Origin: Phycisphaerales bacterium
GTDB taxonomy: Bacteria; Planctomycetota; Phycisphaerae; Phycisphaerales; UBA1924
DNA: 64,000 nt
NCBI GenBank assembly: GCA_029260395.1
Contig: JAJDDJ010000018.1
Location: forward strand, 186,001 to 250,000
Direction of reading: 5' to 3'
In this document: positions 21,498-22,694 of the stretch, piece after piece
Numbering within the stretch: the stretch's first letter is position 1
Layout of the letters: every line of letters starts with the position of its first letter
Translations under genes and position numbers: made by a program
The notes under the pieces: generated by a model
What the model was told of the DNA's origin: nothing
The model's input: the letters and a program-made list of their open reading frames with translations, nothing else
The model's database searches: none

Positions 21498-22605
21498 TCA
21501 CCCCTTGACAGCGCGCCGCCGCTGCAGCTCCGCGTTGATGAAGCCATCAAGCTCGCCCGCGAGCACCACCGTCGGGTTCGAGTGCTCGTGACTCGTGCGG
21601 TGGTCCTTCACGCGGTTGTCGTACAGCACGTAGCTGCGGATCTGCGTGCCCCAGCCGCGGGCCAGATCACCGCCCGAGGCGTCCTTGATCTCCGCAGCCC
21701 GCTTCTCTTCTTCGAGCAGTTCGAGCCTTGCTTGCAGCAGCGTCATCGCCTGCCGCTTGTTCTGCGGCTGCTCGCGGTACGTGCTCGCCACCACCATGAA
21801 CCCGGTGGGCTTGTGGACGATTCGGCAAGCCGACGCCACCTTGTTGACGTTCTGCCCGCCCGGTCCGCTTGAACGCGCAAAGAACGTGAACTCGAGATCC
21901 TTCTCCGGTATCTCGAGGCTCGATTCCTCGAACTCCGGCGTGACCTCGACGGTCGCGAAGCTCGTCTGCCGCTTGCCCTGCGAGTTGAACGGGCTGACGC
22001 GCGCCAGCCTGTGCGCGCCGCGTTCGCAGTTCAGATATCCAAACGCGAACGGCCCCTTCACATGCAGCGTGACGCTATCGATGCCGACCTCGGTGCCGAA
22101 GGATTTTTCGAGCTCCTCGACCTTCCACCTCATCCGCTCGAAGTAGTACAGGTACATCCGCAGCAGCATGTCGGCCCAGTCGTTGGCCTCGGTTCCGCCG
22201 TCGCCCGCGTGGATGGTGAAGAAGCAGTTGCGGTGGTCGTGTCGCCCGCTGAGCAAGCTCTGCAATTCGACCCGGTCCATCTTCTTGACGAGCTTGTGCA
22301 GCGCTTCGTCGGCCTCAAGAAGCAGCTCCTCGTCGCCCTCTTCTTTGGCCATCTCGTAGGCGAGCGCTGCTTCTTCCAACTCGTCGGCCACATCGGTCAC
22401 GGGCGCGATCTGGGCCTTTATGACCTTGAGCTGACCGACGATTTTCTGGGCCGAGTCCTGGTCGTCCCAGAAGCCCTCGGCTCCCATCGATTCTTCGAGC
22501 TGAGCGAGCTTGATCTGCTTGGCATCGTAGTTAAAGAGAGTCGCGGATGGTTAAGATCCGCGCCTCAAGGTCGTCGATGACGGGTTGGTGGGTCTCGAAG
22601 TGCAT
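21498..22605 (-). CDS. prfB: Peptide chain release factor 2, made by +1 programmed frameshift
   Basis: RF2 releases peptides at UGA and UAA. The main frame runs 22532-21498 and lacks a good start at the conserved N-terminus. A 24-codon zero frame begins at ATG 22605, behind AGGAG at eight bases, and ends in CTT TAA at 22536-22531. Skipping the T at 22533 joins it to AAC TAC GAT, giving 368 residues. This matches the classic prfB recoding site (CTT TGA C at codon 26) except that the stop is TAA. The specificity tripeptide SPF and the catalytic GGQ (SSGPGGQNVNK) are intact. Gene callers that ignore frameshifting would start at an internal ATG at 22487. Confidence 0.9.
22531..22536 (-). promoter_or_regulatory. 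prfB +1 recoding site, CTT followed by TAA
   Basis: On the minus strand CTT (22536-22534) precedes the in-frame stop TAA (22533-22531), followed by CTACGA as in other bacteria. No Shine-Dalgarno-like stimulator is seen just upstream. Instead a perfect inverted repeat GCGGAT/ATCCGC with a seven-base loop lies at 22543-22561. Confidence 0.85.
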
Positions 22606-22694
22606 CAAACAGGCTCCTGGCTCGGTCCTGGCTCGGGGTTGTGTCGCACCGATCCCCGGCACGAGGCCAATCGTAGTCCCCCCCGGCTCGGCGG

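Follow-up and report, generated by a model that had tools for sequence, protein, structure and literature searches.

The +1 frameshift of prfB, the gene for release factor 2 (RF2), is the textbook bacterial case. Its usual internal Shine-Dalgarno (SD) sequence is AGGGGG, 3 nt from the CTT of the shift site, and in E. coli the duplex of the internal SD with the anti-SD lies at -9 to -4. This SD has been described as almost universally conserved (PMC12421855), and the pairing of rRNA with mRNA as critical to prfB frameshifting (PMC8710568). The prfB gene of the Phycisphaerales bacterium considered here has no AGGGGG at the usual spacing and carries UAA, a known minority variant (PMC12421855), in place of the UGA of the standard cassette. 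This raises the question of what could stimulate its frameshift, and of what the altered stop codon would do to the feedback. The window analysed is a stretch of 64,000 nucleotides, positions 186,001-250,000 of contig JAJDDJ010000018.1 in assembly GCA_029260395.1 (23 contigs, 3.2 Mb), and the prfB features described lie on its minus strand.

The first open reading frame of the gene (ORF1, 22531-22605) begins at ATG 22605-22603, 8 nt behind what its sequence marks as an ordinary SD (AGGAG, 22614-22618), and runs through 24 sense codons (MHFETHQPVIDDLEARILTIRDSL) to an in-frame UAA; relatives have an ORF1 of the same length and sequence pattern. The shift site (22530-22536) consists of CTT (22536-22534), TAA (22533-22531) and C (22530), that is, a slippery YTT-T followed by an in-frame stop codon readable by RF2 and then C. 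The main RF2 frame, with its SPF and GGQ motifs, is open in the +1 register from the AAC of the shift site (22532) to its own stop at 21498, and the junction AAC TAC GAT reads Leu-Asn-Tyr-Asp. RF2 genes were the best match in 60 of 61 relatives, and the genome has a separate RF1 gene, with a PAT motif, at another locus. ORF1 and the main ORF thereby stand in +1 relation within an RF2 gene, which confirms the UAA-containing prfB frameshift site proposed in a preliminary description of this DNA. ATG 22487 was ruled out as a start codon, the residues from the shift to this ATG being protein-conserved in relatives. The genome also encodes two more proteins with RF-1/GGQ domains (L003, G000:C9, and L004, G000:C18; open frames of 183 and 200 amino acids).

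UAA at a prfB shift site is by itself already known. The GeneTack authors gave the consensus as YTT_TRA_C (PMC3711429), and among the 8,164 motif-bearing genomes of Prince et al. (PMC12421855) TGA accounted for 98.6% and TAA for 1.4%, with no TAG; TAA was judged to be poorly tolerated because it was not fixed in clades. The preliminary description had presented the UAA as unusual, which holds for motif-bearing genomes at large, but the variant was already published and is the norm of the order Phycisphaerales. Of 301 genomes of the order, hairpin-anchored pattern searches located CTTTAAC in 147 and CTTTGAC in 100. UAA makes up ca. 60% of the hairpin-bearing sites, and is the majority form rather than a one-off; since CTTTAAC recurs in so many genomes behind the same hairpin, it is not a sequencing accident. 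The premature-UAA sites of Prince et al. share CTTTAA for CTTTGA with those of the order, but they are described as scattered rather than clade-fixed, and the sites of the order lack the SD which that study calls almost universal. The clade contradicts the published reading of UAA as poorly tolerated and never fixed at clade level.

On the RF2 tree (187 unique sites) the stop codon switched at least 20 times, ca. 13 times towards TAA and 7 times back, compared with at least 49 changes when the labels were shuffled on the same tree. No UAG was found in 210 sites or loci; the stop thus remains one that RF2 reads, and UAA is frequent and readily exchanged within the limits set by RF2 recognition. 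The stop codons of a rough set of 46 ORFs in the window are TGA (26), TAG (11) and TAA (9). The hairpin is present at 73 of 73 UAA sites, most of them from one order, and its co-occurrence with UAA is therefore not independent evidence of a link between the two.

This hairpin (22542-22562), a side remark in the preliminary description, is the main finding. It had been given there as a perfect six-base hairpin at 22543-22561; it is real and lies upstream of the shift site, but its stem has seven base pairs and the structure is one nucleotide longer at either end. The stem (CGCGGAT/ATCCGCG) pairs 22562-22556 with 22548-22542, or -26 to -20 with -12 to -6 when numbered from CTT, and encloses a 7-nt loop (22555-22549). 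RNAfold gave -19.2 kcal/mol for a 74 nt segment (z = -3.6), and none of 200 shuffles was as stable. A G.A mismatch and three further pairs (GAG 22566-22564 with CTC 22540-22538) may extend the stem; folding predicts them, yet they show no covariation and are often broken outside the order, and we keep the extension as possible only. The stable hairpin adjoins the E site, its 3' foot lying at -6 (or -2). No Rfam family matched at the shift site. The E-site spacer codon TCT (22537-22539) is found in 93 of 111 sites of the order. Some other families of the class have TGG in its place (RDWL/REWL; L179, L180, L182, L185, L186 and L191); in these the shift site is retained and the stem is complete or almost so.

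The hairpin was compared among prfB sites within the Planctomycetota, and is conserved and covarying. When synonymous codons were redrawn from each gene's own usage, all seven pairs were expected at 8.8% of the sites of the order (n=111), against 97.3% observed, and the MFE was -11.1 against an expected -4.6. Pair 2, which joins two third codon positions, occurs as GC, CG, GU, UA and AU (unique-site counts: GC 100, CG 34, GU 20, UA 3), and pair 5 as GC 140, CG 8, AU 4 and GU 2; both sets of counts are unselected. The change in pair 5 costs an Ile to Met replacement in two members of the order, and these keep pairing as CGCGCAT/ATGCGCG. G-U and A-U forms of pair 2 stand side by side in genus g262, and both forms of pair 5 occur in genus g363. 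In alignment A1, 40 sites hand-picked for diversity and including variants chosen for their compensatory look, 95% of the cells pair, with a covariation score of 0.345 (0 of 500 shuffles as high), while slid versions of the stem were 18-44% paired. The compensatory changes lie on few independent branches, and paired-branch sign tests on the tree are underpowered.

Codon choice tells the same story. When 90 codon columns of at least fourfold degeneracy and conserved amino acid were ranked by synonymous constraint, the stem codons Ala-9 (GCG in 110 of 111), Arg-8 (CGG in 109) and Arg-3 (CGC 91, CGT 19) took the first three places and the spacer codon of Ser-1 the fourth. The two Arg codons, five codons apart, differ in synonym (CGG and CGC), which is what pairing requires. 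Ile-4, whose wobble base belongs to the stem, is always ATC (105 of 105) and never ATT; Ile-7 has its wobble base in the loop, serves as an internal control, and is divided between ATC (65) and ATT (45).

The absence of the usual SD, also noted in the preliminary description, extends to the order, in which the stretch from -14 to -1 pairs with the anti-SD at +0.3 kcal/mol, versus -2.8 at control positions (n=111). In other families of the class the mean pairing is -3.3 kcal/mol and 63% of 49 sites have the full hairpin; in other classes of the Planctomycetota the mean is -4.4 kcal/mol and the hairpin is absent (27 sites). There is thus a gradient from an SD without hairpin in the phylum, through both in the class, to a hairpin without proximal SD in the order. 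This genome has an intact anti-SD, CCTCC, at the 3' end of its 16S rRNA, and a search of 40 relatives recovered it in 30. Given the gradient and the intact anti-SD, parsimony suggests that the SD was first joined by the hairpin and then lost. In ATCCGGG, the form seen in the class, GGG belongs to both stem and SD, and turning pair 2 from C-G into G-C abolishes the SD without breaking the stem; in members with both, where the SD-like GGG sits inside the 3' arm, hairpin and SD would compete. Since no SD stands ca. 3 nt before CTT, we file the cassette as a variant with another stimulator rather than as a standard member. From its sequence it is probably an RF2 autoregulatory +1 frameshift cassette whose stimulator has become the hairpin.

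How might it act? The 3' arm (-12 to -6) overlaps the place of the E. coli SD duplex. Closing of the stem could pull on or crowd the E-site stretch and loosen the P-site tRNA-Leu, which during slow termination would then shift more readily from CUU onto UUU. Designed upstream hairpins stimulate +1 frameshifting (PMC3639245, PMC6321510); in E. coli extract one reached ca. 60% of the stimulation by the internal SD at CUUUGA, did so only without RF2, and was stronger when more stable (PMC6321510). Because of this in vitro activity, and of the overlap with the place of the SD duplex, we infer that the hairpin takes over the role of the SD. Against this counts the natural stem of 7 bp (perhaps 10 with the mismatch), shorter than the 12-bp test hairpin, a weakened version of which stimulated much less (PMC6321510). 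The UAA would keep the sensitivity to RF2 and add exposure to RF1. As both factors read UAA, the feedback should report on RF1 plus RF2 and be shallower than at UGA; the expectation in the preliminary description of a weaker or two-factor loop is sound biochemistry. For the complete reading, an order-wide autoregulation of RF2 in which a refolding mRNA hairpin does the work of the SD:anti-SD duplex, the first natural +1 shift driven by an upstream hairpin, and sensing of RF1 and RF2 through UAA, we hold the case evenly balanced.

The hairpin might instead serve a distant SD. Directly 5' of the stem lies an SD-like GAGG (22563-22566; -30 to -27), present in 105 of 111 sites of the order, where the Glu codon is GAG in 105 and GAA in none; the GAG is also the part that could extend the stem. 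With the hairpin folded out, GAGG is followed by ACTCT CTT, the same arrangement as the ancestral NGGG or AAGG, so that GAGG would pair with the anti-SD while the hairpin merely removed 21 nt to restore the ancestral spacing of 5 nt. The distal pairing energy in the order is -5.7, and variants such as AAGG and CAGG retain AGG while breaking the alternative stem extension. Within the class, distal AGG and proximal SD tend towards mutual exclusion, distal AGG occurring in 69% of sites without a proximal SD versus 19% of those with it (few independent events; Fisher p = 0.002, uncorrected for kinship). This tie, together with the ancestral spacing, suggests that the hairpin bridges a split SD; a few hairpin members, however, have poor distal SDs (ACGG, TCGG, GCGG), tests on independent pairs were not significant, and the exit channel may lack room for a hairpin lodged between SD helix and E site. 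We regard bridging as the sole function of the hairpin as a tentative alternative, somewhat on the doubtful side, and GAGG may also add an SD contact to a hairpin that stimulates by itself.

The remaining explanations are less probable. That the hairpin is conserved for some other reason (mRNA decay, a protein or sRNA site, pausing), with CUUURAC shifting without a stimulator, would fit the constraint on its loop and the restriction of codon -6 to rare codons, as in a recognition site, but is unlikely in view of its fixed position relative to the shift site, at the place of the lost SD; moreover, in one lineage without the frameshift, few and related genomes, the stem bases are changed and the loop codons unremarkable. 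A similarly low probability attaches to the UAA as a sign of decaying RF2 autoregulation, a leftover stop at which RF1 mostly terminates: the repeated switching makes selection between UAA and UGA look weak, whereas UAG never appears, and conservation extends to the shift site, the C that follows the stop and the spacer codon. By far the least credible is an inverted repeat as by-product of the conserved peptide ARIxxIRD, in which the codons of RI and IR mirror each other. The amino acids alone do give a mean of 5.5 of 7 pairs in the order, but the synonymous shuffle refutes this reading, full pairing being some 97% rather than 8.8%, and paired wobble bases covary, in some cases through replacement of Ile by Met.

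For a hairpin that would bridge the gap from a distant SD there is a parallel in the initiation of phage T4 gene 25, where bridging occurs at the start codon and not, as would be the case here, at a shift site. With the prfB shift of E. coli and most bacteria the present one shares the gene, the short ORF1, the slip at CUU U, the RF2-read stop followed by C, the UCU-type spacer and the +1 direction; it differs in having a conserved hairpin in place of the SD at -9 to -4, a predominance of UAA, and Asn instead of Asp after the shift. The designed hairpins (PMC3639245, PMC6321510) likewise refold next to the E site, standing in for the SD on CUUUGA; they are test constructs, whereas this one is natural, conserved and shorter in the stem. 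We found no natural hairpin-driven prfB site in the literature searched, most subscription journals lying outside it. A clade in which a hairpin has replaced the SD, and in which intermediates carry both, sets the requirement of the ribosome, a duplex at the exit channel, apart from the means of supplying it. The mechanism of stimulation thereby becomes testable with natural sequences, and natural pairs of UAA and UGA sites are on offer for measuring the part of RF1.

Several smaller observations accompanied the survey. Two records titled Vicinamibacteraceae (L048) and Cyanobacteria (L064) carry a Phycisphaerales-type prfB, and their organism names look wrong. Loop codon -6 (22554-22552 in the window) is nearly always TTA/TTG, GTA or ACA in the 111 relatives: all 72 Leu codons are TTR with no CTN, GTA accounts for 18 of 22 Val and ACA for 12 of 13 Thr. 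These codons are rare elsewhere in the same genes (TTA, 11 of 3,034 Leu). Selection for a +1-frame stop in the loop was rejected as the reason, the common CTG also giving TGA and ACA giving none. Finally, a lineage of the same order (L058, L068, L070 and L097) has lost the frameshift and reads continuously through LRYDE; it uses ordinary codons in the loop and has a broken outer stem pair.
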